A DNA stretch of 64,000 nucleotides from Paraburkholderia aromaticivorans (GTDB taxonomy: Bacteria > Pseudomonadota > Gammaproteobacteria > Burkholderiales > Burkholderiaceae): the NCBI RefSeq assembly GCF_012689525.1, contig NZ_CP051515.1, positions 2,294,001 through 2,358,000 on the forward strand, written 5' to 3'. The translations under genes and the position numbers were made by a program. Under the pieces are notes generated by a model. The model worked only from the letters and a program-made list of their open reading frames with translations, had not been told where the DNA came from and searched no databases. Positions 5,436-22,300 of this stretch are shown in pieces. Positions within the stretch are counted from its first letter, which is position 1. Every line of letters begins with the position of its first letter.

Positions 5436-6830
5436 CTAATCGCGCGCCGCCAGCCAGTTGCCGTGAAAGCCGTTCGGCACGCGGTGCGGATTCTCCACCG
5501 TGGCAAGCGGTCCCGCCGCGACCTGCAACGCGTCGAACACCAGCAGGTCGCTGCGCTGCTCGGCACCGCGATACACCACGGCGAGGATCCAGCCGTCGCC
5601 CTCCGCGGCGTCGATCGTGCGCGCTACGAAGACCGGCTCCGATGTCGCGTCGCCGTCCGCGAGTCGATAGTTATCGAGCGCTCGCGGGTTGGCATGATCG
5701 ACGTGGGTGATCTGTGAGAACAGTCCGCCGCCATCGTCATCGCCCGAATGCGCGGCCAGCCATCCATGACGATACGGCCTGCCGGCGAAACGCTCGTCGA
5801 TGCGGGGAAATTCGCCGCTCACATCGGCGATGATCGTGCTCGTGAAGACGCGCTCCTGGCCGCGCCGGTCGAGCGTCCAGCGGCACAGGCGCGCATGGCC
5901 GGCGCCGTCGATCGCGCGGCCGTCGGGCCATGTGAAGTCCGGCGGAGCATCGAACTGCATCACGTCGATGTAGATGCAAGCGTCGTCCTCCCATGCGTTC
6001 ATTACGTGAAAGACAAAGCACGCCGGCCCGCTCCACCAGTCGACTTCGCCACTGCCGTCGCGTCGCAGGACACCGACGAAGCTGCCGAACTGCGGCTCCC
6101 ACGCGTAAGGCGGCAAGCCCGCGCGCATCCGCGCCGCGCTCGCCGTGAGCGGCATCACCGGAAAGAGCAGATGCCGCGCGCTAAACGCGAAGTCATGGAC
6201 CATGCTCGCGTAAGGCGCGTCGAAGCGCGGCAGATGCGTCACGTGCCCGCCCGTATCGATGCTGCCGGCCGTCATGCCCGCCCCCAAACCATCGGGTCCG
6301 CCATAGCCGAAAAACAGCAACTCGCCGGTATCCGGTTCGACCTTCGGATGCGCCGTGAACGCACCCTGCAGCGCACCGCCAAAGTCGACCTGGCCGAGCG
6401 TGTTCAGTGTCCGCGAGTGCAACTCCACCGGCAGATGCGCCTCCTCCAGCGCAAGCAGGCGGTTGCCGTGCATCAGCACATTGGTATTGGCGACGCCGTC
6501 ATCGCCCGGGATTGCCTTCTCCGGCGGAGCGCCGAAGGCAGTGACGTCGGCGGCCCCGCCGGCCCGTTCGGCAACCCAGCGCTGCGTGCGTACCCAGCGG
6601 TTCCGGTACGTCACGCCGCCGTTCGCGAACTCGAAGCGATGGACCATGCCGTGCCCCGCAAACCAGTGCCGCGCTGGATCGGGATGAAGCGGATTAGGGC
6701 CGTTGCGGACCAGCACGCCCGCAAGCCCGGACGGCAACTCGCCGCGCACAGGCAGCGGGCCGCAGTCGGTTTCGAAATCGATCGGCGCCAGATTGGCGCG
6801 GTATCCGTCCATGTCCAAACGTTCGTTCAT
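5436..6830 (-). CDS. Carotenoid cleavage oxygenase family protein
   Basis: A 464-residue non-haem iron oxygenase of the RPE65/CCO family. The four iron-ligand histidines fall in family-typical positions: AHPK, VHDFA, FHVMNAW and the C-terminal NGFHGNW. These enzymes cleave a C=C bond of carotenoids, apocarotenoids or stilbene-type compounds to aldehydes or ketones. The start at 6830 is preferred because TAGGCGG sits just upstream; an upstream ATG at 6872 lies in the AT-rich promoter region. It is divergent from the acyl-ACP-reductase-like gene with a 244-bp shared intergenic region. No carotenoid synthesis genes are in the window, so the substrate is open. Confidence 0.92.
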   Translation of the reverse strand: MNERLDMDGYRANLAPIDFETDCGPLPVRGELPSGLAGVLVRNGPNPLHPDPARHWFAGHGMVHRFEFANGGVTYRNRWVRTQRWVAERAGGAADVTAFGAPPEKAIPGDDGVANTNVLMHGNRLLALEEAHLPVELHSRTLNTLGQVDFGGALQGAFTAHPKVEPDTGELLFFGYGGPDGLGAGMTAGSIDTGGHVTHLPRFDAPYASMVHDFAFSARHLLFPVMPLTASAARMRAGLPPYAWEPQFGSFVGVLRRDGSGEVDWWSGPACFVFHVMNAWEDDACIYIDVMQFDAPPDFTWPDGRAIDGAGHARLCRWTLDRRGQERVFTSTIIADVSGEFPRIDERFAGRPYRHGWLAAHSGDDDGGGLFSQITHVDHANPRALDNYRLADGDATSEPVFVARTIDAAEGDGWILAVVYRGAEQRSDLLVFDALQVAAGPLATVENPHRVPNGFHGNWLAARD

Positions 6831-6846
6831 ACGGCCGCCTAAAATT

Positions 6847-6912
6847 TTCCAATGGAAAGATTTTGACTTCACCGGCTCGTTTGGTCAACACATCTTCTCA
6901 TTGGAAAAATCT
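6847..6912. promoter_or_regulatory. Paired TTGGAAA-like sites in a divergent promoter region
   Basis: A near-palindrome TTCCAATGGAA (6847-6857) followed by AGATTTT is echoed about 45 bases later by CATTGGAAAAATCT (6899-6912). Both lie between the carotenoid oxygenase and the acyl-ACP-reductase-like gene, in DNA more AT-rich than its surroundings. This is a reasonable candidate for an operator of a dimeric regulator. No regulator is identified. Confidence 0.35.
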
Positions 6913-7074
6913 ACCGGACCGGATCGCCAGAGACGCCCATTCCCGGCAATGCGAAGCAACAGACGGGCACATCGCATCAGTTTTCTCTAGAGTTGAAGGG
7001 TCGACCATCTAACACGCCAGTCGACTTTGTCGCGCTGATTGTCCAGCGTGAGTTTCAATCAAAGGGAAAATCAA

Positions 7075-8301
7075 ATGAGAACTTCTGTTCACCACGAAGT
7101 AATGACCTATTCCGACGAGCAAACCGGGGTTCGTCAACTTCAAACGGGCGCCTTGGCACTTAAACACACGATCAGCCCGGACGAGATCCGGGATAACCTG
7201 CCCGCCGGTCAAGGCGGCGTCGGGTTTTTATTTCACGCTACCGACTGGGAAACACTTTCGTTTTCATTTCACAATGTGAAGCATCGAAATGCGTCATTCG
7301 AAGAAGAGCTTTGGAACACCAAGCCTTTCATTGCCTCACCGATCTATTCGGGATCCCAGATCATCGGCGCCAATATTGCCTGTCCGGTGCCGCTCGAAAT
7401 GTGGCTCGGCAGCCCGCGCGGCATCAAGCGATTCCGCGAGACGCAATTTTTCCCGGCACTGGAGCTGGCAAGACAGGCCGGCCTGAACATGGTGGCGATG
7501 GGCGCCTCCACGCCTTACGCCTGCAACTACGGGGCACTGCCGCGCGATACCAAGCCGCCGCATATCACCACGGGTCACGCCGCCACCGCCGCGATGCTGA
7601 AAGATTGGGCCATGCACTGCTGCAATGAACTCGACCTCGAATTCGGTAAGACCAAGCTTGCTCTATTCGGCGCGGCCGGCCGGCTCGGCACGACGGTGGC
7701 CAAATACGCGCTCTACAAAGATGCACCGCGCGAGCTTGTTCTGATCGATCTGCCGGACAAGGTGAACCTGCTCACGGAACAAGCCAAGGAGTTGATGGCG
7801 TCGGACCTGCTCGGTAAAACGCGGGTTTCCGTGCACACCTTCAGCCCGAACACCCCATTGCCGGACTTCGATGGCGCAATTCTGGCGAGCAGCACCAGCG
7901 TGCCCTACCTCACCGCGGCCGATCTCAAGCGCGCGCACTTCTGGATCGACGACTCCCACCCGCGGGCGGCGAGCGTCGAGGCTGAACTCGCGTCACGCGG
8001 TCATACGCTATATATTGAATGCTTCGCCCGTGGGCCGGCCGGACTCAACACCGCGTTCCCGTTCCGGCTGCCGACCACGCGCGATTGCTATACCTGTTTC
8101 GCCGAAGGCTACTCCGCCTGGCAGGAAGGCATTGCGTCCGACTTCATCATCGGCAGCCCGCCCGTGTGGTCCGTCTCGTACACGCACAGCCTGCTGAAGA
8201 AGTACGGCTTCGCGGTCGGCCCTTTCCACGGGAAAGACGGTTCGCCGATCGAGCTGGCGGATGCACAACTTCGCGGCAAGCAAGAATTGATGGGCTCGTA
8301 A
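7075..8301 (+). CDS. Rossmann-fold enzyme resembling long-chain acyl-ACP reductase; candidate signal synthase
   Basis: A 408-residue cytoplasmic protein. Residues 195-225 hold a nucleotide-binding strand with GAAGRLG (199-205), preceded by a GHAATAAM segment. The segment TCFAEG at 340-345 places Cys341 where, as I recall it, cyanobacterial acyl-ACP reductase has its acyl-accepting Cys (ACFAEA). The upstream block CPVPLEMW...LNMVAMGA also resembles that family. Family members reduce fatty acyl-ACP to aldehyde with NADPH. The start at 7075 has an AAAGGGAAAA ribosome site; an alternative at 7039 adds 12 residues. It is followed after 17 bases by a CqsS-like sensor kinase, the position where phc/lqs/cqs loci carry the signal synthase. 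It could instead belong to an uncharacterised relative such as Ralstonia PhcB; I cannot align to test that. Confidence 0.7.
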   Translation: MRTSVHHEVMTYSDEQTGVRQLQTGALALKHTISPDEIRDNLPAGQGGVGFLFHATDWETLSFSFHNVKHRNASFEEELWNTKPFIASPIYSGSQIIGANIACPVPLEMWLGSPRGIKRFRETQFFPALELARQAGLNMVAMGASTPYACNYGALPRDTKPPHITTGHAATAAMLKDWAMHCCNELDLEFGKTKLALFGAAGRLGTTVAKYALYKDAPRELVLIDLPDKVNLLTEQAKELMASDLLGKTRVSVHTFSPNTPLPDFDGAILASSTSVPYLTAADLKRAHFWIDDSHPRAASVEAELASRGHTLYIECFARGPAGLNTAFPFRLPTTRDCYTCFAEGYSAWQEGIASDFIIGSPPVWSVSYTHSLLKKYGFAVGPFHGKDGSPIELADAQLRGKQELMGS

Positions 8302-8318
8302 ACGTCACTGGAGGCCTG

Positions 8319-10895
8319 ATGGTAATGCCGCGCGAGAGCATGCGGGACGTGCTGGAACGAAGCCGGTTTGCAATACGATGGGGCGGCGCACTGGGCCTCC
8401 TGTGCCACCCCATCTACTACGTAGTCTGGACGTATGTCCTGCCACAGCCTTACGACAATCTCTCCCTTCGATTGAGTGCGGCGCTCGTCTGCATTCCATT
8501 GATTTTCCAGGCGCGCTGGCCAAAGCGGTTTAATCATTACCTGCTGATCTATTGGCATTGCTGCCTGATCTACGTCCTGCCATTCGTTTGCACATTCCTC
8601 GCGATCAGAAATTCATTCTCCACCATGTGGATGATGACCGAGGTCATGATGATCTTCATCATGGCGCTGTGCATCGACAATCCGCTTTTGCTGATGGGCT
8701 GCATCGGCATTGGCGTGTTTTCCGGGGCGCTTGCCGCGGTGATCAGTTCGCCGGTTCCGATTGTCGTGACTGCGGCCGATCAGTCGAATCTCGCCTTGCT
8801 GCCGGTCGTCGTCCTGTGCAGCATGGCCTTCAGCCATGCGATCAGTAAAGGACGCATCTTCGTCGAAAAGAACCGCGCGTTGCAGGCTCTCGCCGGTTCG
8901 ATCGCGCATGAAATGCGCAATCCTCTCAGCCAGTTGCGCTACGTGCTGGATCGCGTGGAAGAAGCCCTGCCCGCGACGATGGGATCCAACCGGCCGCTGG
9001 CACTCACGCACGACGGGAACGACAGGCACGACAGGAACGAGAGCGCCGCGGGGCTGTATCGCCATCTCGCCCAAGGGCAGTTGTCGATCGAGCGCGGCCT
9101 GCGCATCATTGCCATGACGCTGGACGAGGTCAGCGCCAAACCCATTCGCCCGGACTTCCTCACTTATCTGAGCGCGACGAGTACCACGCGTAAGGCGCTG
9201 GAAGAATACGGCTTCGGCGACGAAAAGGAACGCAGCAAGGTCAGGCTCGTGGTGCGGGAAGACTTCACCTTCAAGGTCGACGAAACCGTTTATCTGTTCA
9301 CCCTGTTCAACCTGATCAAGAACGCGCTGCATCACATCGCCACGCACCCGGCGGCCACGCTCACCCTGACGATCGAGCAGCAGTCGGTCATGGTTCGCGA
9401 CACCGGTCCCGGCATTGCGCCCGACATGGTGTCGCATCTGTTCGAGCCCTTCCGTACGGCGGGCACTTCGGGTGGTACCGGGCTCGGACTCGCCTACTGC
9501 CAGCGCGCGATGCGCGCCTTCGGCGGCAGCATCAGTTGCCGCTCGGAAGTCGGCAAGTTCACGGAATTCACGCTGCAATTTCCCGTCGTCCCGAAGAGCG
9601 AAATCGTGGACCACGAGCGGCAGATTTTTGAACGCGCCACGCCGATCTTCAAAGGCAGACGCATTCTCGTCGTGGACGACGACGCCGGTCAGCGCGCGCG
9701 AGCCTGTCGTGCATTGTCGAAAGTGGGCGCGCACGTGAGCGAAGCGGAAAACGGCGCGATCGCATTGACCGTGCTCCGGGAGTCGGCTCCCTACGACCTC
9801 GTGTTGATGGACATCAACATGCCCGTTCTGGACGGCTACACGACCGCCGAGAGAATTCGCGCCGGCCACGACTATCCAAGCTGGAATGTCCTGATTGCCG
9901 CCTACACGGCCGAGCCCGGAACGGTGGTGCGCGTGCTCGCCCGACGCGCCGGCATGGACGAAATCATCAGCAAATCCTGCAGCGTGCTCGAATTGATCAC
10001 GACGCTCCAGGCGCTCTTCGAAAACGGCAACCGCCACCATCCGAGCCAGAAATCCGACGCGTTCTCCGGCAAATCGATCCTCGTCGCGGACGACGACACC
10101 TACAGCCGGCTGGTGGCCAAAGCCTATCTGGAGCGATGCGGCGCGAGCGTCGTCGAGGCCGAGCATGGGCAGGCCGTGCTCGCGCATCTGCAGGCAGACG
10201 GCGTGATCGACGCCATCGTCATGGATATGAATATGCCGGGAATGGGCGGACTGGAAACGACCGCGTCGATTCGCGCCCGCGCCGACTCGTATGCCACCGT
10301 GCCGATCATCGCCTTGACCAGCCAGTCCGATATCAAGGCAGTCCAGACCTGTCTGGCAGTGGGTATGAACGAAGTCATGATCAAACCGGTGCAAGCCGGC
10401 TCGCTCTACGCGTGCCTTGCGCGGCAGTTTGCCCAGCAACGCGGCTCGGCCGTGTCGACAGAAGCCGACCTATCGTCGACGCCGGCGGCCACGCCGATCG
10501 GCAAGCTGCCAATCGTGACGGAAAGCGAACTGCTCGACGAGAAACACCTCGAAGAGTTGGCGTCGCTCGATCTGCTCGACGAATCGTTCCTCAACGGCAT
10601 CGAGCAGATTCGCCAGCTGGTGGCGCGGCTTGCGACCAGTGTCGCGGCCAGCGACCTCGAATCGACGCACGGCGCGTTGCACGTCCTGCTTGGTGTCAGC
10701 GGCAATATCGGTGCAAGAGCGCTGCATCAGTTCGCACGGCAAATCTATCCGCGCGTGGTGGAAGGCGAATGGCCGGTGGAAACCGATTGGCTCGCGCGCA
10801 TCGGCATCTTGAGCGAGCGTTCAACCGATGCGTTGCAGACGTATTTCGCTACGGCCAAGGCACGCCGCGAGCATCGGGATTTTCTGAGCGACTAG
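8319..10895 (+). CDS. CqsS/LqsS/PhcS-like hybrid sensor histidine kinase with two receivers and HPt
   Basis: An 858-residue membrane kinase. Residues 20-175 contain about six membrane segments. The stretch GLLCHPIYYVVWTYVLPQPYDNL (23-47) closely resembles the ligand-sensing N-terminus of Vibrio CqsS. The HisKA H-box (SIAHEMRNPL) has His197; the ATPase domain has N-box NLIKNALHH, DTGPGIAP and GGTGLGLAY. Receiver 1 (about 448-560) has Asp498, receiver 2 (585-700) has Asp636, and a C-terminal HPt-like domain has His788 in ALHVLLGVSGNIGA. Receiver 1 has SKS where most have KP. GGAGG precedes the ATG at 8319; an in-frame ATG at 8325 is also possible. It is probably co-transcribed with the upstream enzyme gene. 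Confidence 0.9.
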   Translation: MVMPRESMRDVLERSRFAIRWGGALGLLCHPIYYVVWTYVLPQPYDNLSLRLSAALVCIPLIFQARWPKRFNHYLLIYWHCCLIYVLPFVCTFLAIRNSFSTMWMMTEVMMIFIMALCIDNPLLLMGCIGIGVFSGALAAVISSPVPIVVTAADQSNLALLPVVVLCSMAFSHAISKGRIFVEKNRALQALAGSIAHEMRNPLSQLRYVLDRVEEALPATMGSNRPLALTHDGNDRHDRNESAAGLYRHLAQGQLSIERGLRIIAMTLDEVSAKPIRPDFLTYLSATSTTRKALEEYGFGDEKERSKVRLVVREDFTFKVDETVYLFTLFNLIKNALHHIATHPAATLTLTIEQQSVMVRDTGPGIAPDMVSHLFEPFRTAGTSGGTGLGLAYCQRAMRAFGGSISCRSEVGKFTEFTLQFPVVPKSEIVDHERQIFERATPIFKGRRILVVDDDAGQRARACRALSKVGAHVSEAENGAIALTVLRESAPYDLVLMDINMPVLDGYTTAERIRAGHDYPSWNVLIAAYTAEPGTVVRVLARRAGMDEIISKSCSVLELITTLQALFENGNRHHPSQKSDAFSGKSILVADDDTYSRLVAKAYLERCGASVVEAEHGQAVLAHLQADGVIDAIVMDMNMPGMGGLETTASIRARADSYATVPIIALTSQSDIKAVQTCLAVGMNEVMIKPVQAGSLYACLARQFAQQRGSAVSTEADLSSTPAATPIGKLPIVTESELLDEKHLEELASLDLLDESFLNGIEQIRQLVARLATSVAASDLESTHGALHVLLGVSGNIGARALHQFARQIYPRVVEGEWPVETDWLARIGILSERSTDALQTYFATAKARREHRDFLSD

Positions 10896-10941
10896 GGACG
10901 ATACGGGCGGCGAGGCAAGCGGCCATGCAAGCCTTTCGATT

Positions 10942-12108
10942 TCATCGCGAGGCCACCTGACTGTCGGACGGTTCTTCGTCGTCAGCGGTGTGCATGCGGC
11001 TATTGAAACTGGGAAAGCCCATGGTCACCGTGGTGCCCGCGCCGACCGTGGATTCGATCCGCAGGCATCCGCCGAACGATTGCATGATGCGGTTGCAAAA
11101 GATCATGCCCATGCCGTGGCCGCCGGCGCCGGCGTAAGTGGTGACCGGATCCTGCAGCAGACGCGCCTTGACCTCGGGCGCGATCCCCGGACCATTGTCG
11201 CGAATGCGGATCTCGGGTTCAGGGAACGCCACCACTTCGAGCCGCAACGAAGGCGCGCTGCTGCCGTCGAGCGCGCGCAGCGCGTTGGACAACAGCGAAG
11301 ACAGCACGAGCGCCACGCAATTGGGCATGGCGTGCACGACAAAATCCCCCTCCACCTCGACCTTCACCCAATCGCGCTGCGACGCGACAAACGGATAGGT
11401 GTCGAGCAGCGTAGCGATCAGGCGCGTCGCTCTGACCGCGCGCGTGCCGCCGCCCGACGCGGACTTCTGCCCGCCGCTCTTGTGCACGGTCGCCCAGAAC
11501 GACGAGATCAGCGTCAGGCAATACTGCGCGTTGTTCAGCATCGACTTCGCCGCGAGGCCGATCTCCCGCTGACGCTCCGGATCGTATTGTTCGGCCACGT
11601 CGTTCTCGACGGAGCGCGCGAACAGCGAGATCGTCGCCAGCGGCGTGTTCAGTTCGTGGGCAAGGAAAGCGAGCGTCTCGTCCATGGCCAGCAGCCGCTG
11701 CTGACGCGTTTCCCGTTCCGTGTAACGCGCGGTTGCGAGTTGCAGAACCTCGCGCACCATGTCCGTTCGCAGCGGCTTTTCGATAATGCGGAACACGTCG
11801 CCGGTATTGACCGTTTGCAGCAGCATGTCCTTGTCGGCATAGGCGGTCACGAGAATGCGCACGATTTGCGGATACTCCTGCGCCACCTGGCGCAGCAGAT
11901 CGTCGCCGTCGCGGCCCGGCATGCGGAAGTCCGTCACCAAAACGGCAATCTCCGCAGCGTGCTTGCCTAGCACCGTCATCGCCTCGTCGGCGCTTTGGGC
12001 GACATACACTTTGTAATCGGCACTCATCGCGCGCGCGAAGTGGTTGCGCGACATCTCGTCGTCGTCGACGAAGAGAATGGAAAACGGCGGCTGCATAGGG
12101 TCACTCAT
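10942..12108 (-). CDS. Receiver-histidine kinase protein (PhcR-like)
   Basis: A 388-residue soluble protein with an N-terminal receiver (residues 8-125; VDDDE acidic cluster, Asp60 in VTDFRMPG, Lys111 in EKP) joined to a kinase core: H-box FLAHELNTPLA with His151, N-box SSLLSNALRAL, and DNGPGIAP. There are no membrane segments or DNA-binding domain, so its output is a phosphotransfer or kinase step. That architecture is known from PhcR of Ralstonia, which works with the sensor PhcS. It is convergent with the hybrid kinase gene (46 bases between stops). The start at 12108 is chosen from the receiver boundary and a CTGGGA ribosome site. Confidence 0.88.
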   Translation of the reverse strand: MSDPMQPPFSILFVDDDEMSRNHFARAMSADYKVYVAQSADEAMTVLGKHAAEIAVLVTDFRMPGRDGDDLLRQVAQEYPQIVRILVTAYADKDMLLQTVNTGDVFRIIEKPLRTDMVREVLQLATARYTERETRQQRLLAMDETLAFLAHELNTPLATISLFARSVENDVAEQYDPERQREIGLAAKSMLNNAQYCLTLISSFWATVHKSGGQKSASGGGTRAVRATRLIATLLDTYPFVASQRDWVKVEVEGDFVVHAMPNCVALVLSSLLSNALRALDGSSAPSLRLEVVAFPEPEIRIRDNGPGIAPEVKARLLQDPVTTYAGAGGHGMGMIFCNRIMQSFGGCLRIESTVGAGTTVTMGFPSFNSRMHTADDEEPSDSQVASR

Positions 12109-12417
12109 CGCATTCCCAGCGGATGGCGGCGGGTCGACATTGAACGACGCCCACGTTGCGGATGATAAAAATGGCTTGCCGCGCGGCAAGCAACGGATCG
12201 TTTTGGCGTTTGGAAGTATAGGGCATCGCGTCTCGCGAAAAATGGGGGATCACCGCACAGCCTTATCCAATATGCATTAGCGCAAAGCAGACCGGCTCGC
12301 CGCGCACAACGGCACGTTGCTTGCGTGCGGACAGAGCCGGACTGATCCACTGTCGCCCGCGCCGCGGGATCGCACAGCATGGACGCCCGACACCTTCCAC
12401 CAGGGGGAAGCGGTGTC

Positions 12418-14253
12418 ATGGAACTGACCAACGATGGCGATGCCGGCCGGGCCGGGCGCGTGCGCAGACGGCGGCAGTCCCGCGTGCTGTCGCGATACGC
12501 CGGGCGGCCCATCCCGCTGATCTGGCGTTACGTAGCGCGCCGCAAGCTGGCGCACGCCGTCGTGCTGGCCAGCGTCGTGGCGGCAGTCGGCTGCGCGCTG
12601 GCGTCGCAATATGGGATCCGCAATCTGATCGACGCGTTGCCGGGCGGCCGCGCCCAGCCGCAACACGTGATTCACGCGTTTGCCGTACTGGTCGCGCTGA
12701 TCCTCGCCGACAATCTCTTCTGGCGCATTGCCGGCTGGATTTCGGCGCGCACGTTCGTGGCCGTGACGGGCGACATCCGCCGCGAGATGTTCGACTATCT
12801 CACGGTGCACGCCCCCACCTTCTTCGCCGACAAGCAACCCGGCGTCCTGTCGAGCCGGATCTCGGCGACGGCCAACGCGGTGTACGTAATCGAAAACACG
12901 GTGGCGTGGACGGCCTTTCCACCGTGCCTGACCGTCGTCGGGGCGATCGTCATGGTCGGCGCGGTCAGCGTTCCCATGAGCCTCACGCTGGTCGGCATTT
13001 CGGCCGGACTGGCTTTCTGCCTGTTCCTGCTGGCCCGCAAAGGCACCTCCCGGCACGAGGCGTTCGCCGCGCAGGCTGCTTCGGTCGACGGTGAACTGGT
13101 GGACGTCATCGGCAATATGGGGCTGGTCCGCGCCTTCTGCGCCGTGGTGATCGAGCGGCGGCGCTTCGACACGCTGCTCGCCGCCGAAGGCGATGCCCGC
13201 AAACGCAGCCTGCTTTATCTCGAGAAGCTGCGCCTGTTGCACGCGTTCGCCATCTGCATTCTGTCGGCTTGCGTACTCGGGTGGACCGTGTGGCTGTGGA
13301 GCGTCGGGCGTGCGACGACCGGCGACGTCGTTCTGGTCGGCTCGCTGGGTTTCTCGATCCTGCACGGTTCGCGCGACATTGCCGTGGCGTTCGTCGACCT
13401 GACCCAGTATTTCGCCCGGCTTGGCGAAGCCTCGGAGACACTGCTGATCCCGCACGCCATGCCGGAACCGACCAGAGCGACGCCGCTCGAAGTCCGGCAC
13501 GCCACCCTGGACTTCGAAAACGTGACGTTCGCGTATCCGGGCCGCCGCCCGGTGTTGACCGGTCTGAACCTGCATATCGGCGCGGGCGAGCGCGTCGGTC
13601 TGATCGGCCCCTCGGGGGCGGGGAAATCGACCATTTTCGCGCTCCTTCAGCACTTCTACGAGCCGGGCTCCGGGTACGTGCGCATTTCGGGCCAGGACAT
13701 TGCGCAGGTCACGTTGCAAAGTTTGCAAGGCGCCATCTCGGTCGTGCCGCAGGACGTGTCGCTGTTTCACCGCTCGCTGTTCGACAACATCCGCTACGGT
13801 TGCCCCGATGCCACCGAGGCCGACGTGCGCCGCGCGTGCGAGGACGCTTACTGCCTGGATTTCATCAACGCGATGCCCGAAGGGCTCAACACCATTGCGG
13901 GCGATCGCGGCACCAAACTCTCCGGCGGACAGCGGCAGCGCATCGCGATCGCCCGCGCCATTCTGAAAGACTCGCCGATCCTGCTGCTCGACGAAGCAAC
14001 GTCGGCGCTCGACACCGCATCGGAGATCGCCATTCAGGCGGCGCTCGAACGGCTCATGCAGCATCGCACCGTCGTCGCGATCGCTCACCGGCTGTCGACC
14101 TTGCAGTCCTTCGACCGGATCGTGGTGCTCAACCGCGGCCGCGTTGTTCAGCAAGGCACGCCGGCCGAACTGGCCGCCGTGCCGGGCATCTATCGCGACA
14201 CGCTGGCGCGGCAGATCAGACGCACGCCTGCGCCGCGCCCCGATCTCATGTGA
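12418..14253 (+). CDS. ABC exporter, fused membrane and ATPase domains
   Basis: A 611-residue half-transporter of the MsbA/ABCB type. An exporter membrane domain (about residues 40-330, six segments) is followed by an ATPase domain with Walker A GPSGAGKST, Q-loop VVPQDVS, signature LSGGQRQR, Walker B ILLLDEATSALD and the H-loop IAHRLST. It should work as a homodimer exporting a lipid, peptide or drug. The ATG at 12418 follows AGGGGGAAG; an upstream ATG at 12379 has a weaker site. It is a single gene, reading away from the kinase locus; whether it exports a signal is speculation. Confidence 0.9.
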   Translation: MELTNDGDAGRAGRVRRRRQSRVLSRYAGRPIPLIWRYVARRKLAHAVVLASVVAAVGCALASQYGIRNLIDALPGGRAQPQHVIHAFAVLVALILADNLFWRIAGWISARTFVAVTGDIRREMFDYLTVHAPTFFADKQPGVLSSRISATANAVYVIENTVAWTAFPPCLTVVGAIVMVGAVSVPMSLTLVGISAGLAFCLFLLARKGTSRHEAFAAQAASVDGELVDVIGNMGLVRAFCAVVIERRRFDTLLAAEGDARKRSLLYLEKLRLLHAFAICILSACVLGWTVWLWSVGRATTGDVVLVGSLGFSILHGSRDIAVAFVDLTQYFARLGEASETLLIPHAMPEPTRATPLEVRHATLDFENVTFAYPGRRPVLTGLNLHIGAGERVGLIGPSGAGKSTIFALLQHFYEPGSGYVRISGQDIAQVTLQSLQGAISVVPQDVSLFHRSLFDNIRYGCPDATEADVRRACEDAYCLDFINAMPEGLNTIAGDRGTKLSGGQRQRIAIARAILKDSPILLLDEATSALDTASEIAIQAALERLMQHRTVVAIAHRLSTLQSFDRIVVLNRGRVVQQGTPAELAAVPGIYRDTLARQIRRTPAPRPDLM

Positions 14254-14287
14254 TTCGAGACGCGGGCGACGGCGCAGGGTGTTTCTC

Positions 14288-14509
14288 TCACGCGCCCGCG
14301 CCCGCGCCAAACAGGCGGCGCACGAGTTCACGGCCGCGGCTGGTCAGCCGCAGCGTCGACGTGCCGCCCACTATCACACCCTCCTCGCGCCGGTCGATTT
14401 CGACCAGCTCGTATCGGCTCAGGGCGAGCACGTCGGGATCGATGGCCTCCGGACGCCGCCCGGTGCCCGCGAGACGCAGCAGTGTCGCGAGTTCATGATG
14501 GCTCAGCAT
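14288..14509 (-). CDS. Small conserved-looking protein, unknown function
   Basis: A 73-residue protein with a GAGGTAA ribosome site. The sequence, with LATLLRLAG, ALSRYELVEI and STLRLTSRGRELVRRL, has the look of a small winged-helix or DNA-binding domain (helix, helix, beta hairpin, helix). No exact family was recognised. It ends 35 bases from the convergent ABC exporter. Confidence 0.65.
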   Translation of the reverse strand: MLSHHELATLLRLAGTGRRPEAIDPDVLALSRYELVEIDRREEGVIVGGTSTLRLTSRGRELVRRLFGAGAGA

Positions 14510-14932
14510 CGGTTACCTCGTCGGTTGAGACTGGACAATGCCGACATGCTAGTTGGCGAGCCCGACATTCAGGCTACGGTTCTGTTGCGTCAAGTTACGC
14601 GGTTACACGTTGGCACCGCGCGCTTGCCTCGCTTGCTCCCCAATCACGGCCCGCGTCGTTGCTACTTTTTCCCGTATGGCCGCGCTCGCGCCTGGACAGA
14701 CTGCACAGCGCCACGGCCCGGTCGACGGTAACAAATCGAAACGCCCGTCAAGGGACTGTCGTGAGAATTAGCTCCAGACTCAGATAGACTCTGTTCGTGA
14801 TTGTCTGGATTCCTGTCGCCGGCAACGGCGATGCCCTATCCTGGGAGTTCGTATGACGCTCTTCGACAGCAATTGGCCGGGCCGTCCATCGACGGCGTTC
14901 GCCGGCTGCAACGGATCAGGCGGGAGACCGTC
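14510..14932. other. Divergent intergenic region upstream of the efflux operon
   Basis: The open frames here are short and shadow-like. The region separates the small minus-strand protein from the RND operon and should hold promoters for both. A GGCGGGAG ribosome site precedes 14933. No clear operator palindrome was seen, and no local regulator gene accompanies the operon. Confidence 0.5.
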
Positions 14933-16195
14933 ATGAGCGAAGCGTCGTCAATCCAGGTCAAGCGTCCGCGGCGTGGCCGCATCGTGCTCGCCATCGTGGT
15001 GCTGGCGCTGATCGCGCTGGTGGTGTTTCATCTGCTGCGCTCGAAGGCGCCCAAGCCCGCCGTGGCGCCTCAGGTCGTGACGGTCGCCGCCGCCACCACG
15101 GGACCGATGCCGGAGACGCTGAGCGAACTGGGCACCGTGACGCCCGTCGCCACTGTCACCGTGCTGCCGCAACTGAGCGGCTACCTGACTGCCGTCGGCT
15201 ATCGCGAAGGCCAGGACGTGCAGAAAGGGCAATTCCTCGCGCAAATCGATCCGCGTCAGTACGAAATCAGCAAGCGGCAAGCGGAAGCCCAACTCGCCAA
15301 GGACAAGGCGGCGCTCGCGCAGGCCCGTGCCGATCTCGCGCGCTATACGCAACTGAATGAGCGCAAATCGATTGCCGAGCAGACCTATGCGGACCAGCGG
15401 TTTCTCGTCCAGCAGGATGAAGCGGCCATCAAGGCCGACGAAGCCAACATCGCGCAATTCGATCTCGACCTGATCTACTGCCACATCACCGCGCCGGTGT
15501 CAGGCCGGGTCGGGCTGCGTCTCGTCGACCCGGGCAATTACGTAACCGCGTCGAGTCAACCGGGCATTGCGGTGATCACGACCATGAAGCCGACCACCGT
15601 CGAATTCACCGTGCCGCAAACGGCGCTCGACAAGATTTTGCAGCGCACCAACGCCGGCGCGCAGTTACCGGTCAGCGTGTTCAGCAGCGACAATTCCCGG
15701 CAAATCGCCACCGGCACGTTGTACGCGATCAACAACCAGATGGCGACCGCAACCGGCACCGTCACACTGCGCGCAACCGTCCCCAACGACGATGAGGCGC
15801 TCTTCCCCAGCGAGTTCGTCAACGTCAAGCTGCTGGTCGACACACTGCAAAACGCGGTGCTGGTGCCGACGCCCGCGGTACAAAGCGGCGCGCCTGGCGA
15901 CTATGTGTATCTGGTCAACGCCGACAACACCGTATCCGTGCGCAAGGTCACGCTGGGACCGGGCGACGGCCAGCATACGGTAATCACGACAGGACTCGCC
16001 GCGGGCAACGTGGTCGTCACCGACGGGATGGATCGCTTGAGCGACGGCGTGAAGATCAAGGCGTCGGCGGCGCGGGCGGGGTCGGGTGCCGCGGGCGCGT
16101 CGGCGGCAATGCCAGCGACACCGCCTGCCACCGCGTCCGCAGCACGCCGCACGCGTCCTGCGTCCGCGCCCAACGCGGCTTCCACGGCTTCGTAG
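14933..16195 (+). CDS. mdtA: RND efflux periplasmic adaptor (MdtA-like)
   Basis: A 420-residue membrane-fusion protein. One N-terminal anchor (residues 16-38) replaces a lipoprotein signal. Then come the lipoyl-type halves (VTPVATVTVLPQLSGYL), a helical hairpin (about 115-175), the second half (ITAPVSGRVGLRL), and a beta-barrel and proximal domain. The last 45 residues are Ala/Pro/Thr-rich and probably disordered. It links the inner-membrane pump to the outer-membrane channel. First gene of a four-gene operon; the next gene starts 15 bases after its stop. The start at 14933 follows GGGAG; an upstream extension to 14801 lacks support. Confidence 0.92.
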   Translation: MSEASSIQVKRPRRGRIVLAIVVLALIALVVFHLLRSKAPKPAVAPQVVTVAAATTGPMPETLSELGTVTPVATVTVLPQLSGYLTAVGYREGQDVQKGQFLAQIDPRQYEISKRQAEAQLAKDKAALAQARADLARYTQLNERKSIAEQTYADQRFLVQQDEAAIKADEANIAQFDLDLIYCHITAPVSGRVGLRLVDPGNYVTASSQPGIAVITTMKPTTVEFTVPQTALDKILQRTNAGAQLPVSVFSSDNSRQIATGTLYAINNQMATATGTVTLRATVPNDDEALFPSEFVNVKLLVDTLQNAVLVPTPAVQSGAPGDYVYLVNADNTVSVRKVTLGPGDGQHTVITTGLAAGNVVVTDGMDRLSDGVKIKASAARAGSGAAGASAAMPATPPATASAARRTRPASAPNAASTAS

Positions 16196-16210
16196 CACGC
16201 CGCCCCGTCG

Positions 16211-19200
16211 ATGAACTTCTCCCGCCTGTTCATCCTCCGACCCGTGGCGACGTCGCTGCTGATGGTCGCGCTCGTGCTCGTCGGCCTGGTCGCGGTGCGC
16301 TTCCTGCCGGTCTCGTCGCTGCCGGACGTCGACTATCCGACCATCCAGGTCCAGACCTTCTATCCGGGCGCGAGTCCGAACGTGATGGCGACCACCGTCA
16401 CCGCGCCGCTCGAAGTCCAGCTCGGCGAAATCCCGGGCTTGCAGCAGATGGTGTCTTACAGTTCGGAAGGCGCGTCGGTGATCACGCTGCAATTCGATCT
16501 CTCGCTGAACCTCGACATCGCCGAACAGAACGTGCAGCAGGCGATCAACGCCGCCAACAGCTTCCTGCCGAGCGGCCTGCCCGCGCCGCCGACCTACGCC
16601 AAGGTCAATCCGGCCGATCAGCCAATCCTCACGCTCGCGGTCACGTCGAAGTCCATGTCACTGACGCAGTTGCAGGACACCGCCAACAATCGCCTCGCCA
16701 CCAAGATTTCCGAAGTCCCCGGCGTCGGTCTCGTCACGACCGCCGGCGGCAACGTACCGGCCGTGCGCGTCGAAGCGGACCCGCAGAAGCTCGCCGCCTA
16801 TGGCCTGAATCTCGACGATCTGCGCACCCTGCTCGCGAACGTCAACGTCAGCCAGCCGAAAGGCAATTTCGACGGTCCGGAGCTCGACTACACGATCAAC
16901 GCGAACGATCAGATCGTGGACCCGCAAGATTATCTGGCCACGGTGATCGCGTATCAGAACGGCGCGCCGGTGTATCTGCGCGATGTCGCGCGCGTGAGCC
17001 AGGCCGCGCAGGACGTGGAACGCGGCGCGTGGTACAACGGCACGCCGGCTATCGTGCTGAACGTGCAGCGTCAGCCGGGCGCGAACGTGATCGCCACCGT
17101 CAACCAGATCATGAAGCAGTTGCCGGCGCTCGAATCGACGCTGCCCGCCGGCCTGCAAGTCACGGTGGTCGCGAACACCACGGGCGTGATCCGCTCATCG
17201 GTCTCGGACGCCGCGTTCGAACTGGTGCTCGCCGTCGTGCTGGTGGTGCTGGTGATTTTCGTCTTCCTGCGCAACGTGCCCGCCACGATCATTCCGAGCA
17301 TTTCCGTGCCGGTCTCGCTGATCGGCACGCTCGCCGTGATGTATCAGCTCAACTATTCGATCGACAACCTCTCGCTGATGGCGCTGATCATCGCGACCGG
17401 TTTCGTCGTCGACGACTCGATCGTGATGATCGAGAACATCGTGCGCTATCTGGAGGAAGGCAAGACGCCGCTCGAAGCCGCGCTCGAAGGTGCCGGCCAG
17501 ATCGGCTTCACGATCCTCTCGCTGACGGTCTCGCTGATCGCCGTGCTGATTCCGCTGCTGTTCATGGGCGGCGTGATCGGCCGGCTCTTCAGCGAATTCG
17601 CCATCACGCTCGCGGTGACGATCGTGATCTCGGCGGTGGTCTCGCTGACCGTCGTGCCGATGCTGTGCGCGCGCCTGTTGCGCGCGCAGGCGCAACGCCA
17701 TCCGAGCCGCTTCGAGCGCATCAGCGAAGGGCTGTTCGACAAGACGCTCGCCGCGTACGAGCGCGGCCTGGTCTGGGTGCTCGATCACCAGTTGCTGACG
17801 CTGGTGGTCGCGCTGATTACCGTCGCGCTCACCGCGATCCTGTACATCGTGATTCCGAAGGGCCTGTTCCCGGTGCAGGACGTCGGCGTGATTCAGGGCA
17901 TCAGCGTAGCCGACAACTCGGTGTCGTACACGGCGATGGTCCGGCGTCAAAGCGCCCTCGCCGAGGCGATTCTGAAAGATCCCGACGTGGTGTCGCTGAC
18001 TTCGTATGTCGGCATCGACGGCACCAATCCGACATTGAACAACGGCCGCTTCCTGATCAATCTGCGCCCGCGCGACGACCGCTCGGTCACCGCCGAGGAA
18101 ATCGGCCGTCGCATTCAGCAGGAAGTCGCCGACGTGCCCGGCATTCGCCTCTACCTGCAACCCGAGCAGGACCTGACGCTCGACACCTCGATCTCGCGCA
18201 ACCAGTACAACTTCGTGCTGCGCGGGCCGAATCAGCAGGCCTTCAACCAGTACGTGCCCGCGCTGATCGCGCGCATGAAGCAGATTTCCGTGATCACGGA
18301 TGTCACGAGCGATCTGAACACCAACGGCCTGAGCGTGAACGTCGAAGTGAACCGTCAGCTTGCCGCGCGCTACGGCATCACGGCGGCCACGATCGACAAC
18401 GCGCTGTACGACGCGCTCGGCCAGCGCATCGTCTCGACCATCTTCCAGCAGTCCGATCAGTACCGCGTGATTCTCGTGGCGAAGCCCGAGACGATCCCTA
18501 CGGTGCAATCGATCGGCAATCTGTATTTGCCGAGTCAAACCAGCAGCACCGGCCAGGTGCCGCTGTCGGGGATCGCGAAGATCAGCATCACGCAATCGCC
18601 GCTGTTGATCAGCCATCTTGCGCAGTTCCCGTCGGTCACGATCTCGTTCAACCTCGCGCCGGACGCGTCGCTCAGCGCCGCCGTGGCGCAGATCCGCGAC
18701 GCTGAGAAAGCGGTGGAATTGCCGCCGTCGATCACGACATCGTTCCAGGGCGCGGCGCAGGCGTTCGAAGATTCGCTTTCCAGCGAGGTGTATCTGCTGA
18801 TCGCCGCGCTAGTCGCCGTATATATCGTGCTCGGCGTGCTGTACGAAAGCTACATTCACCCCGTGACGATTCTCTCGACGCTGCCGTCGGCCGGCATCGG
18901 CGCTTTGCTTGCGTTGATGATCGCGGGCAGCGACCTCGACGTGATCGGCATTATCGGCATCGTGCTGCTGATCGGCATCGTCAAGAAGAACGCGATCATG
19001 ATGGTCGACTTCGCACTCGAAGCGGAGCGCGTGCACGGCAAGCCGGCGCGTGAAGCGATCTTCGAAGCGTCGCTGCTGCGCTTCCGCCCGATCCTCATGA
19101 CCACGCTCGCGGCTATGCTCGGCGCGCTGCCCATGTTGCTCGGCACCGGCACTGGGTCGGAACTGCGCAGGCCGCTCGGGCTTGCGATCATCGGCGGGCT

Positions 19201-19336
19201 CACGCTCAGCCAGGTGCTGACGCTGTTCACGACGCCGGTGATCTATCTGTTCTTCGACCGCCTCGCGCAGCGCGTGAAGAACCGGCGCCGCGCCGCGAAT
19301 GACGGCGCCACCGCGCCGCCGGAGAACACGCCGTGA
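16211..19336 (+). CDS. mdtB: RND efflux pump subunit (MdtB-like)
   Basis: A 1041-residue inner-membrane proton/drug antiporter, the normal length for the family. Membrane segment 4 carries the proton-relay pair in GFVVDDSIVMIENI (near residues 405-410). The two repeated halves each have a first helix followed by a large periplasmic porter domain. In E. coli, MdtB and MdtC form a mixed trimer exporting bile salts, novobiocin and similar compounds; the tandem arrangement of two different pumps here matches that system. The stop overlaps the GTG start of the next pump gene. Confidence 0.95.
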   Translation: MNFSRLFILRPVATSLLMVALVLVGLVAVRFLPVSSLPDVDYPTIQVQTFYPGASPNVMATTVTAPLEVQLGEIPGLQQMVSYSSEGASVITLQFDLSLNLDIAEQNVQQAINAANSFLPSGLPAPPTYAKVNPADQPILTLAVTSKSMSLTQLQDTANNRLATKISEVPGVGLVTTAGGNVPAVRVEADPQKLAAYGLNLDDLRTLLANVNVSQPKGNFDGPELDYTINANDQIVDPQDYLATVIAYQNGAPVYLRDVARVSQAAQDVERGAWYNGTPAIVLNVQRQPGANVIATVNQIMKQLPALESTLPAGLQVTVVANTTGVIRSSVSDAAFELVLAVVLVVLVIFVFLRNVPATIIPSISVPVSLIGTLAVMYQLNYSIDNLSLMALIIATGFVVDDSIVMIENIVRYLEEGKTPLEAALEGAGQIGFTILSLTVSLIAVLIPLLFMGGVIGRLFSEFAITLAVTIVISAVVSLTVVPMLCARLLRAQAQRHPSRFERISEGLFDKTLAAYERGLVWVLDHQLLTLVVALITVALTAILYIVIPKGLFPVQDVGVIQGISVADNSVSYTAMVRRQSALAEAILKDPDVVSLTSYVGIDGTNPTLNNGRFLINLRPRDDRSVTAEEIGRRIQQEVADVPGIRLYLQPEQDLTLDTSISRNQYNFVLRGPNQQAFNQYVPALIARMKQISVITDVTSDLNTNGLSVNVEVNRQLAARYGITAATIDNALYDALGQRIVSTIFQQSDQYRVILVAKPETIPTVQSIGNLYLPSQTSSTGQVPLSGIAKISITQSPLLISHLAQFPSVTISFNLAPDASLSAAVAQIRDAEKAVELPPSITTSFQGAAQAFEDSLSSEVYLLIAALVAVYIVLGVLYESYIHPVTILSTLPSAGIGALLALMIAGSDLDVIGIIGIVLLIGIVKKNAIMMVDFALEAERVHGKPAREAIFEASLLRFRPILMTTLAAMLGALPMLLGTGTGSELRRPLGLAIIGGLTLSQVLTLFTTPVIYLFFDRLAQRVKNRRRAANDGATAPPENTP

Positions 19337-22300
19337 ACATCTCGGCGCTCTTCATCCGGCGCCCGGTCGCGACCGCGCTGCTGGCGGTCGCGATCCTGAT
19401 ATCCGGCGCGCTTGCGTATTTCCGCCTGCCGGTGGCGCCGCTGCCGAACATCGCCTTTCCGGTGATCGCGTTGCAGGCGAACATGGCGGGGGCAAGTCCG
19501 GAAATCATGGCCGCCACGGTCGCCGAGCCGCTGGAACGGCGCCTCGCCACCATCGCCGACGTGAACCAGCTCACCTCGATCAGTTACGTGGGCTCGTCGA
19601 TGATCATCGTGGTGTTTGGCCTGAACCGCGATATCAACGGCGCGGCGCGCGATGTACAGGCCGCTATCCAGGCCGCGCGCGCCGATCTGCCGACCACGCT
19701 GCGCAGCAACCCGACCTATCGCCAGTACAACCCGGCCGGCGCACCGATCATGGTGCTCTCGCTGACCTCCGACACGCTGACGAAAGCCCAGCTCTACGAC
19801 TCCGCCGATTCGGTGATCCAGCAGCAACTGTCGCAGATCGACGGTGTCGGGCAGATCACGCTCGGTGGCGGCGCGTTGCCCTCGGTGCGCGTCGAGTTGG
19901 AGCCGGGCAAGCTGAACAGCTACGGCATCGGCCTCGAAGACGTGCGCGCGGCAATCGGCGCGGCCAATGCGAACAGCGCGAAAGGCCATGTCGACCAGGG
20001 CGAGCAGCGCTACGTGGTGACCTCGAACGATCAGATCAGCAAGGCCGCGCCGTATCGCGACGTAGTGATCGCCTATCGCGACGGCGCGCCCGTCTTGCTG
20101 CGCGACGTCGCCCAGGTGCGCGACTCGAACGAAAATATCCGCAATGCCGGGCTCTACAACGGCAAGTCGGCCGTGCTCGTGATCGTCTATCCGACGCCGG
20201 GCAGCAACGTGGTGCAGACGGTCGGGCAAATCCGCGCGCGCCTGCCGATCATCGAGGCCGCGTTGCCGAGCGCGATTCATGTGAACGTCGCCATCGACCG
20301 CTCGGAGTCGGTGCGCTCCTCGGTGGCCGACACCGAGCGCACGCTGTTCATCGCGGTGCTGCTGGTGGTGGGCGTGGTGTTCGTGTTTCTGCTGTCGCCG
20401 CGCGCCACGCTGATTCCGGCAGTCGCTCTGCCGCTGTCGATCGTTGGCGCCTTCGGACCGATGTATCTGCTCGACTATAGCATCGACAACCTCTCGCTGA
20501 TGGCGCTGACGATCGGCACCGGTTTCGTGGTCGACGACGCCGTGGTGGTGCTGGAGAACATCGTGCGCCACCTCGAAGCCGGGCTCGAGCCGAAAGAGGC
20601 CGCGCTGCGCGGCAGCGCCGAGGTCGGCTTCACCGTTATCTCGATGAGCCTCTCGCTGATCGCCGTGTTTTTGCCGATCCTGCTGATGCCCGGCATTGTC
20701 GGGCTGCTGTTCCACGAGTTCGCCGTCACGCTATCGATCGCGATCATTTTGTCGCTCATCATCTCGCTGACCATCACGCCGGTCATGTGCGCTTATCTGC
20801 TCAGCCACGAACGCACGATGCATTCAAAGGCACGCTGGGCACGCTGGGTCGAGGCGCAGTTCGAGCGCTTCAAGCAGGCGTATTCCCGCTCGCTCGCGGT
20901 GGCGCTCGATCATGCGCTCGCGGTCGTTCTGCTGCTGATCGGCCTGCTCGTGGCCAACGTGTTCCTGGCCCGCCTCCTGTCCGGGACGTTCTTTCCGGAG
21001 CAGGACACCGGCATTCTGATCGGGCAGATCATCGCCGATCAAAGCGTCTCGTTCAACGCCATGGAAAAGAAGCTCGCGCAATTGCAGTCGATCGTCAAGC
21101 AGGACCCGGCGGTGGCGTCGGTCGCGGGCTTCACCGGCGGACGCGCGCTGAATACCGCCAACGTGTTCATCGAACTGAAACCGCTCGCGCAACGCCATCT
21201 ATCGGCGACGGAGGTGGTCAACCGCTTGCGGCCGAAGCTCAACGCCGTCTCCGGCGCGCGGCTCTTCCTGCAGGCGCAACAGGATCTGCAGATCGGCGGA
21301 CGCCAGGCCGCGGCCGAATACCAGTACACGCTCTCCAGCGACGACGCCAACGCGCTCTTCACGTGGGTGCCGAAACTCGTGACCGAACTCGGCAAATACC
21401 GCGGCAAGATGGAAGACGTGAACTCAGACCTGCAACAGAACGGCTTGCAAACCTACGTGAACTTCAGCCGCGCGACCGCCACGCGCTACGGTTTCCAGCC
21501 GAACCAGATCGATAACGTGCTGTACGACGCTTTCGGCCAGCGCACCGTGTCGACCATTTACAACCCGCTGAATCAGTACTTCGTCGTGATGGAAGTCGCG
21601 CCGGCCTATTGGCAGTATCCGCAAGCGCTCAATCAGATCTACCTGAGCACGGCCGCAGGCAACGCGAACGGCACGCAGCAAACGCAGATGTCGCGCGCCA
21701 CCGTCAAAGCCGTGCAACAGGCGGCAGCCATCAGCAGCGCGTCGAGCACCAACGCGAACACGAATTCGCAGAATACCGATGCCGAAGCGAACCAGCAGAC
21801 CAACAGCATCTCTAACAGCAAGGGCGGCAATTCCAGCGGCAGCGCCGACAGCACCGCGGCCGAAACCATGGTTCCACTGGCCGCGCTAATGACCTTCTCG
21901 AACAGTCACACCGCGACGCAGGTGAACCACCAGAGCGGCCTCGTGGCCGGCACCATCTCGTTCAATCTGCCGACCGGCGGATCGCTGAGCGAGGCCGGTC
22001 AGATCATTGCGCAGGCCGAGCGCGACATCGGTATGCCCGCATCGGTCCAGGGCGCATTCGCGGGCGCCGCGCAAGCGTATGCGCAGTCGATGGGCGCGGT
22101 GCCGTTGCTGATTCTCGCCGCGCTGGTGGTGGTCTACCTGGTGCTCGGCGTGCTGTACGAGAACACGGTGCACCCGCTTACGATCCTGTCGACGCTGCCG
22201 TCGGCGGGCATCGGCGCAACGCTGGCGCTGCTGATCTTCGGCACGCCCTTTTCGGTGATCGCGATGATCGGCATCATTCTCCTGATCGGCATCGTCAAGA

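Follow-up and report, generated by a model that had tools for sequence, protein, structure and literature searches.

A stretch of 64,000 nucleotides from the Paraburkholderia aromaticivorans genome (NZ_CP051515.1, positions 2,294,001 to 2,358,000), analysed as a whole and here called the window, carries a gene for a reductase-like enzyme, a gene for a CqsS-type hybrid histidine kinase directly behind it and a convergent gene for a receiver-kinase protein. The current work suggests that the enzyme and the kinase probably form a synthase-receptor cassette, that is, a self-contained quorum-sensing unit. In the best reading, the reductase type is a new class of synthase for CqsS-type sensors and one of several interchangeable modules. 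The initial annotation of this DNA had placed the enzyme in the synthase slot of such a system; the idea gained support from the matching of sensor classes to synthase classes, from the differing sensor of a paralogous kinase and from the residue pattern at sensor position 107. The source genome comprises 10.84 Mb in four contigs. The stop codon of the enzyme gene and the ATG of the kinase gene are 17 bp apart, and GGAGG at 8310-8314 lies 4 bp ahead of that ATG; a TTG at 7039 is a possible alternative upstream start for the enzyme gene. The positions of the open reading frames (ORFs), Cys341 in a TCFAEG motif and the convergent receiver-kinase gene were all found as first described (Table 1).

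The pairing of enzyme and kinase is conserved. A scan of named genome contigs gave 52 enzyme loci, the neighbours of which were checked by tblastn, and a CqsS-like kinase gene was found nearby in every one of them. The nearest named relatives of the enzyme belong to Paraburkholderia, and P. xenovorans LB400 also carries the pair (L041); seven loci lie outside Burkholderia/Paraburkholderia. In the SAR92 and Porticoccaceae loci the enzyme stop overlaps the kinase start, in L047 and L050 the kinase is divergent to the enzyme, and in Thiosymbion L049 a DDE transposase lies between an enzyme copy and the kinase. Among neighbouring ORFs of at least 120 aa, no family present in at least eight of the 52 loci reached a distant locus other than the enzyme and the kinase; overlapping frames hid some ORFs from this count, which caught the kinase in 47 and the receiver (REC)-kinase protein in 31 of the 52 loci (tblastn: 52 and 35). 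The proposal that the gene order is kept outside this genome therefore held for the enzyme and the kinase, here and in 55 of 55 cases in the genus survey described below, and failed at the distant loci for the third gene. Compared with five relatives, the enzyme of the window has a dN/dS of 0.07-0.11 (395 codons); the values are 0.03-0.13 in the sensor and 0.19-0.26 in the remainder of the kinase.

Some loci of the pair have features of their own. One Thiosymbion metagenome-assembled genome (MAG) has another enzyme-like ORF (L049:6846-8555), which at 569 aa exceeds the usual length of the enzyme. L047 and L050 have in common a similar 350-aa neighbour gene with no Pfam match at E <= 1e-5, and L050 contains a second CqsS-like hybrid kinase (L050:8721-11393) besides the one adjoining the enzyme. 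Enzyme and sensor share one open frame of 1285 aa at G099:C4:804268-805980, and at L002:10001-11246 the enzyme match changes frame near its end; each of these may be either a natural fusion or a sequencing error.

The relation between sensor and synthase was surveyed in 144 genomes of the genus, with neighbours crossed within 5 kb and with KASIII, CqsA and REC-kinase matches limited to E <= 1e-60. Sensors were sorted into classes A (reductase), K (KASIII) and C (CqsA), first by score bands, then by opening loci and finally by crossing all positions. The enzyme profile matched 59 of the 144 genomes; 55 were counted as having enzyme genes, including G129 (two partial matches) and G099 (one frame with the kinase), three matches were remnants with stops and one was unrelated. 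The unrelated one, in G117, was rejected as a carrier, its weak match lying inside a 1006-aa frame. In all 55 cases the sensor gene is directly downstream of the enzyme gene on the same strand. Sensors occurred in 98 genomes with at least 150 matches, and the classes were counted among the 150 matches listed. Among these, class A comprised 59 sensors, 55 beside the enzyme and four beside remnants; class K comprised 34, of which 28 stood beside a KASIII gene and six alone; class C comprised 55, all beside a CqsA-type gene; two further sensors fit no class. No off-diagonal combination of sensor and synthase was found among the 150 listed sensors. Seen from the synthase side, each of the 55 CqsA matches has a sensor and no enzyme gene is without one, and 4 of 32 KASIII matches have no sensor within 5 kb, three of these being distant (38-42% identity). 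No CqsA-type gene was detected in the genome of the window at E <= 1e-60, which agrees with the earlier statement that a CqsA/LqsA-type gene is absent.

In L087, L088, L089 and L090 a class A sensor has been kept beside an enzyme remnant, as if listening without speaking. The fourth remnant (G011) lies directly upstream of its sensor and has 36% identity over 110 residues (E 2.5e-8).

The sensors also differ by class at the head-group position. The preference of CqsS for a head group is determined by W104 and S107, and F160, F162 and F166 guard the site, according to a part of PMC3376566. The residue table compiled here covers the sensor of the window and 51 class A sensors drawn from 50 of the 52 loci, giving 52 class A rows; its nine class K rows reduced to eight distinct ones, and L045, L049, the remnant loci L087-L090, L077 (class K) and L132 (PF14518) were left out. 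At the W104 position, Trp is present in all 52 class A rows. The S107 position has Thr in 49 of 52 class A, Ser in 15 of 15 class C (CqsA-linked) and Ala in all eight class K rows, where the second L050 sensor (L050_A_8721) is labelled A though another gene adjoins it and L078 is labelled K without an adjoining KASIII gene. At F166, Cys occupies 50 of 52 class A and Ala 8 of 8 class K rows, and class C is mixed. Rows within a genus are not independent; the stronger part of the pattern appears to be Thr107 in Oxalobacteraceae, SAR92, Porticoccaceae and Thiosymbion together with Ser107 across many families.

The genome of the window has one enzyme gene, two strong sensor matches and three weak ones. 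At L059:5754-9393 (G000:C2, about 3093753-3097392), a KASIII-like gene immediately precedes the gene of a paralogous hybrid kinase that has another sensor, and the KASIII-like product seems to contain what we take to be the Cys, His and Asn motifs of such enzymes. The paralog has the same domain layout as the window kinase; the two share 28% identity over residues 1-185 but 69-77% from residue 186 on, and their DNA similarity begins at gene nucleotide 559. In a tree of 56 sensors, several long rows of which were flagged by the tree program, one branch sets class A sensors of several families apart (96/67; recovered in 96% of bootstrap trees), and another does so for the class K sensors (100/100). 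When the kinase parts of these proteins were placed in a tree, class K fell inside Paraburkholderia class A, and the starred branches force at least four changes for class A and at least two for class K. On the simplest reading, synthase and sensor may be transferred jointly to a shared kinase body.

The enzyme can be placed in the superfamily of acyl-acyl carrier protein (ACP) reductase (AAR) and PigE on sequence profiles, by its dinucleotide-binding motif and by a cysteine at the homologous place. No Pfam family was matched above its cut-off; the best one, Ldh_1_N, matched weakly along the dinucleotide-binding stretch. The enzyme was rejected as a member of the AAR family proper, as the NCBIfam model TIGR04058 (long-chain acyl-ACP reductase; E 5.6e-4) gave 19.3 bits against a curated cut-off of 449.7; PigE (E 0.038) and malate dehydrogenase (0.088) were also far under their cut-offs. 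An enzyme profile of 61 sequences (A2) searched against PDB matched 9e4x, an 'amino acid adenylation domain protein', at E 2.2e-14 and the cyanobacterial AAR 6jzq at E 5.4e-7. Profile positions 29-364 matched chain 4ppm (E 0.038), named an aminotransferase and taken for a PigE-type protein from its length and layout. Malate and 2-hydroxycarboxylate dehydrogenases followed at E 1e-4 and weaker, over the dinucleotide stretch only, and the same stretch of the enzyme yields weak malate/lactate dehydrogenase matches. Beyond it the enzyme aligns with AAR, PigE and 9e4x, and a closer kinship with an unrelated metabolic family, raised at the outset as a possible refutation, was not seen. PhcB was rejected as a model, since the enzyme has no methyltransferase domain by Pfam. 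The C-terminal piece of the enzyme gave chance-like PDB matches only (E 0.47 or worse), and plasmid records contained no match to the enzyme.

A 992-aa protein at L148:3540-6518 consists of an aminotransferase fused to an AAR-like reductase, and its two flanking ORFs are presumably adenylate-forming ligases. By hhalign the fusion matches A2 with 97% probability, the CFAE of the enzyme falling on CMAE of the fusion, and this CMAE site aligns with FaCFAEA of AAR, where entry 6jzz has Ser. Cys341 thus takes the place of the AAR cysteine, as the fusion bridges the two alignments. All 61 aligned rows share Cys341, Cys338, Cys316, His168, Asp292, Asp293 and His295. The parts of PMC8341465 that concern this site put PigE Cys296 at the place of AAR Cys294 and describe the acyl group of AAR and GluTR as first loaded onto the active-site cysteine. 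From the cysteine place, the conserved residues and the superfamily kinship, reduction of an acyl thioester by the enzyme may reasonably be inferred.

The kinase can be assigned to the CqsS type by its homologous multi-pass N-terminal sensor, the Trp at W104 and the phospho-acceptor His. Its layout is sensor-HisKA-HATPase-REC-REC-Hpt; in Pfam, HATPase and two receivers exceed their cut-offs, and HisKA (16.6 vs 26.9) and Hpt (21.1 vs 24.6) stay below them. Sensor residues 1-185 match five Vibrio records by tblastn (26-31% identity, E 7e-11 to 2e-12) and share an alignment and a tree with Vibrio sensors, which bears out the likeness to Vibrio CqsS remarked on in the initial annotation; PDB and NCBIfam returned nothing meaningful for the sensor. 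A cqsA-like gene adjoins the kinase, judged from ORFs, in all three Vibrio records opened, and the synthase of one of them (L065) scores 696.7 against a cut-off of 428 bits with the NCBIfam alpha-hydroxyketone autoinducer synthase model. Trp and His are 90 positions apart in V. campbellii, just like W104 and H194, and a Phe stands 24 residues ahead of the His, in agreement with the published V. harveyi F175; the residue numbering therefore agrees with that in the relevant parts of PMC3376566 and PMC3285556.

In the mechanism proposed here, the enzyme would load the fatty acyl group of an ACP or CoA thioester onto Cys341 and reduce it with NAD(P)H to an aldehyde. The aldehyde itself, or a product of its spontaneous conversion or of conversion by a host enzyme, would be released and bound in the CqsS-type membrane sensor of the kinase. 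Binding would alter phosphate flow along the relay of His197, Asp498, second receiver and Hpt-like histidine, and in strains having a PhcR-like gene its product would probably receive or modulate this flow. That the signal is an acyl aldehyde or a direct derivative of one is about as probable as not. To our knowledge, such a compound is not yet known as a bacterial quorum-sensing signal.

A pair of this kind could also serve the cell that makes it. An internal or membrane-held aldehyde or alcohol may be sensed in the same cell and regulate lipid metabolism, with no communication involved, and this is rather unlikely. Three points would suit such a role: the characterised relatives of the enzyme have metabolic functions; AAR and GluTR, according to a part of PMC8341465, channel the aldehyde they form to the enzyme that follows; and no export gene recurs at the distant loci among families in at least eight loci. 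The same count, however, shows no recurring partner enzyme beside the pair; secreted signals are what the studied members of the sensor family detect; and the four genomes with a sensor next to an enzyme remnant are in keeping with listening to neighbours. It is more doubtful still that the enzyme, rather than being a synthase, modifies or removes an external signal or a toxic acyl compound to which the kinase responds. Sensors are commonly found next to detoxifying or quenching enzymes, but this enzyme occupies the place that CqsA has beside other sensors of the family, and the class of the sensor follows that of the synthase. The least probable explanation is that the operon was inherited vertically within one genus, with a few transfers and no functional tie between sensor and enzyme. 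Most examples of the pair do fall within one genus; yet it recurs in Oxalobacteraceae, SAR92, Porticoccaceae, Thiosymbion and two MAGs, partly in changed orientation and in other surroundings, and the residue at 107 follows the synthase class.

Several observations weigh against the synthase-receptor reading or against parts of it. The residue pattern has exceptions: the divergent-kinase loci L047 and L050 have Trp at 107 and the second L050 sensor has Ala, Thr107 occurs in three of nine sensors without an assigned synthase (the others being mixed), and of the three PF14518-linked sensors, with Asp, Ser and Asn at this position, one shares the Ser of class C. A close KASIII relative in G140 (89%, a partial match) has no sensor within 5 kb. 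The support for the class A sensor group is modest at 96/67, and class K neighbours it in the tree (94/84) on a long branch; with these points and the flagged long rows, fast divergence of the sensor after duplication, rather than a swap, may explain the trees. The enzyme is distant from the characterised reductases, as the TIGR04058 score indicates, and its extra invariant residues C316 and C338 could mean metal binding or some other chemistry. It is also rare outside the genus: its full-length match in a class sample of 369 genomes was confined to the genome of the window, and in a family sample it occurred in 6 of 135 genomes and in one genus of 25. As for a unit of three genes, the third is present in 43 of 59 class A surroundings of the genus and absent from all seven distant loci.

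There is an even chance that the CqsS-type receptors form a plug-in kit, in which a synthase and its matching sensor domain travel jointly and are swapped onto a common kinase output, the reductase cassette using an acyl aldehyde or a direct derivative. One genus probably has at least three synthase chemistries, of CqsA, KASIII and reductase type, with PF14518 genes as a possible fourth class. If the synthase-receptor reading is true, several unrelated synthases of one enzyme each are served by a single receptor family, which is known for alpha-hydroxyketones, and the sensor that matches a synthase can be recognised by the residue at its head-group position. Sequence would then allow the chemistry of unknown signals to be predicted in part, and many soil- and plant-associated bacteria would have an unrecognised communication channel.

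The third protein is a close relative of PhcR-position proteins, with 58% and 61% identity to those of two phc-like operons in the genus and the same Pfam layout, so that the architectural parallel to PhcR drawn earlier was confirmed; REC and kinase are also the layout given for PhcR in a part of PMC8578825. A REC-kinase gene (at least 67% identity) is present in 35 of 45 Burkholderia/Paraburkholderia enzyme loci. In the genus, among the matches listed, it lies near 43 class A, 11 class K and no class C sensors. Of its 77 genus matches (E <= 1e-60), 23 are away from class A or K sensors, and three of these, when opened, showed the order methyltransferase, kinase, REC-kinase, receiver, complete or in part, with overlapping frames hiding some ORFs. 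This is the order described for the phc operon in a section of PMC8578825; the name phc-like refers here to gene order and domains and not to a Ralstonia sequence. The PhcS-position kinases of the genus were tried as relatives of the sensor and rejected (in a search of two sequences, hmmsearch gave E about 1; the probability by hhalign was 0.3%), and the grouping of PhcS with CqsS and LqsS in the initial annotation was not upheld for these proteins, which are those of the genus and not of Ralstonia. The window system thus resembles PhcBSRQ of Ralstonia in the PhcR-type layout of its third protein and differs from it in the sensor, which is unrelated in sequence to the PhcS-position one, and in the enzyme, as the PhcB-position protein (L157) has a methyltransferase domain and the window enzyme has none.

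Other known systems also resemble the window pair in part. CqsA/CqsS of Vibrio, the system of CAI-1, has a homologous membrane sensor with the W104 equivalent, a hybrid kinase and an adjoining synthase gene. In contrast, the window synthase is of reductase type and not a pyridoxal phosphate enzyme, its sensor has Thr107 for S107, and its kinase carries two receivers and an Hpt-like domain of its own. Clusters of LqsA/LqsS type, represented by class C of the genus and not by a Legionella sequence, have the same sensor family, but another synthase class and kinases of 447-471 aa in six loci opened; the class C synthase of L079 is above the cut-off of the alpha-hydroxyketone synthase model. Membership of the window pair in the CqsA/LqsA systems was rejected, given the reductase-superfamily enzyme and the Thr at 107. 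Homologues of lqsA-lqsS are mentioned in Burkholderia xenovorans and others in a part of PMC3376566, a mention that fits class C and not the window pair. With AAR and the reductase domain of PigE, the enzyme shares the dinucleotide motif, the TTG motif and the cysteine in C-F/M-A-E, and it differs from them in the additional invariant Cys316 and Cys338 and in adjoining a sensor kinase gene. No report of a reductase-sensor pairing was found among the papers listed, a weak absence as it covers open-licence papers only.

Table 1 Features of the window and of related loci (positions without a locus label are those of the window)
Feature	Position	Strand	Basis
Acyl-ACP-reductase/PigE-superfamily protein, proposed signal synthase, 408 aa	7075..8301	+	ORF, ATG start, translation
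TTGH motif, residues 165-168	7567..7578	+	TTG on AAR TTG, H on AAR N; H168 in 61/61
GAAGRLG dinucleotide-binding motif, residues 199-205	7669..7689	+	On AAR GATGDIG; G199 and G205 in 61/61, G202 in 60/61
Cys341 codon, proposed catalytic cysteine, in DCYTCFAEG	8095..8097	+	Cys in 61/61 aligned relatives
CqsS-type hybrid histidine kinase, proposed receptor, 858 aa	8319..10895	+	ORF, ATG at 8319; Pfam
CqsS-like membrane sensor domain, residues 1-185	8319..8873	+	tblastn to Vibrio, alignment, sensor tree
Trp104 codon, equivalent of CqsS W104	8628..8630	+	Trp in 52/52 class A rows
Thr107 codon, equivalent of CqsS S107, head-group position	8637..8639	+	Thr in 49/52 class A rows
Phospho-acceptor His197 codon	8907..8909	+	AHEMRNPL at 196; on the CqsS H194 position
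Asp498 codon, likely phospho-acceptor of first receiver	9810..9812	+	LMDINMP at 496
Second receiver domain	10077..10412	+	Best Pfam Response_reg stretch; VMDMNMP at 634
Hpt-like domain, His788 in LHVLLGVSGNIGA	10602..10745	+	Pfam Hpt 21.1 bits vs cut-off 24.6; motif
PhcR-like receiver and histidine kinase protein, 388 aa, convergent	10942..12108	-	ORF; Pfam Response_reg, HisKA, HATPase_c above cut-off
PF14518 haem-oxygenase-like genes beside CqsS-like kinases	L085:3954-4610; L132:5320-6033; L138:3747-4475; L144:3157-3843		
Distant enzyme loci, named groups	L042 Oxalobacteraceae; L046 SAR92; L052 Porticoccaceae; L048, L049 Thiosymbion		
Distant enzyme loci, MAGs	L047, labelled Rickettsia typhi (label doubted); L050, unassigned proteobacterial		

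Among the 369 genomes of the class sample, the sensor was present in 19 and a match to the enzyme profile (E <= 1e-3) in 15; in the phylum sample the enzyme passed in 3 of 398 genomes, one of them through a partial match in a 2817-aa frame. A protein search returned close relatives of the enzyme named Ralstonia and Cupriavidus (84-86% identity in local alignment) and further relatives from Oxalobacteraceae, Rickettsiales and Porticoccaceae. When the 19 sensor loci of the class sample were opened (L129-L147), five had an adjoining CqsA-type gene and three a PF14518 gene; in the remaining loci a response regulator, other genes or a contig end lay beside the sensor. In the genus locus L085, a small, weakly FeeM-like ORF precedes the PF14518 gene.

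Upstream of the three genes, on the opposite strand at 5436-6872, a family search identified a lignostilbene/carotenoid cleavage dioxygenase-like gene, which among the 52 enzyme loci had a partial match in L002 alone. Downstream, the region 12379-22653 begins with an MsbA-like ABC transporter gene (NCBIfam), and the genes after it look like what we take to be an RND efflux operon. The ABC gene adjoins the enzyme-kinase pair at more than 90% identity in two of the 52 loci, L001 and L002.

Plasmid-borne CqsS-like kinases without an annotated synthase were observed in L062, L063, L064, L066 and L068. The next gene codes for a response regulator in Polaromonas and is unnamed in Rhodanobacter and Dyella, and helicase or BREX-type genes lie near four of the five kinases.

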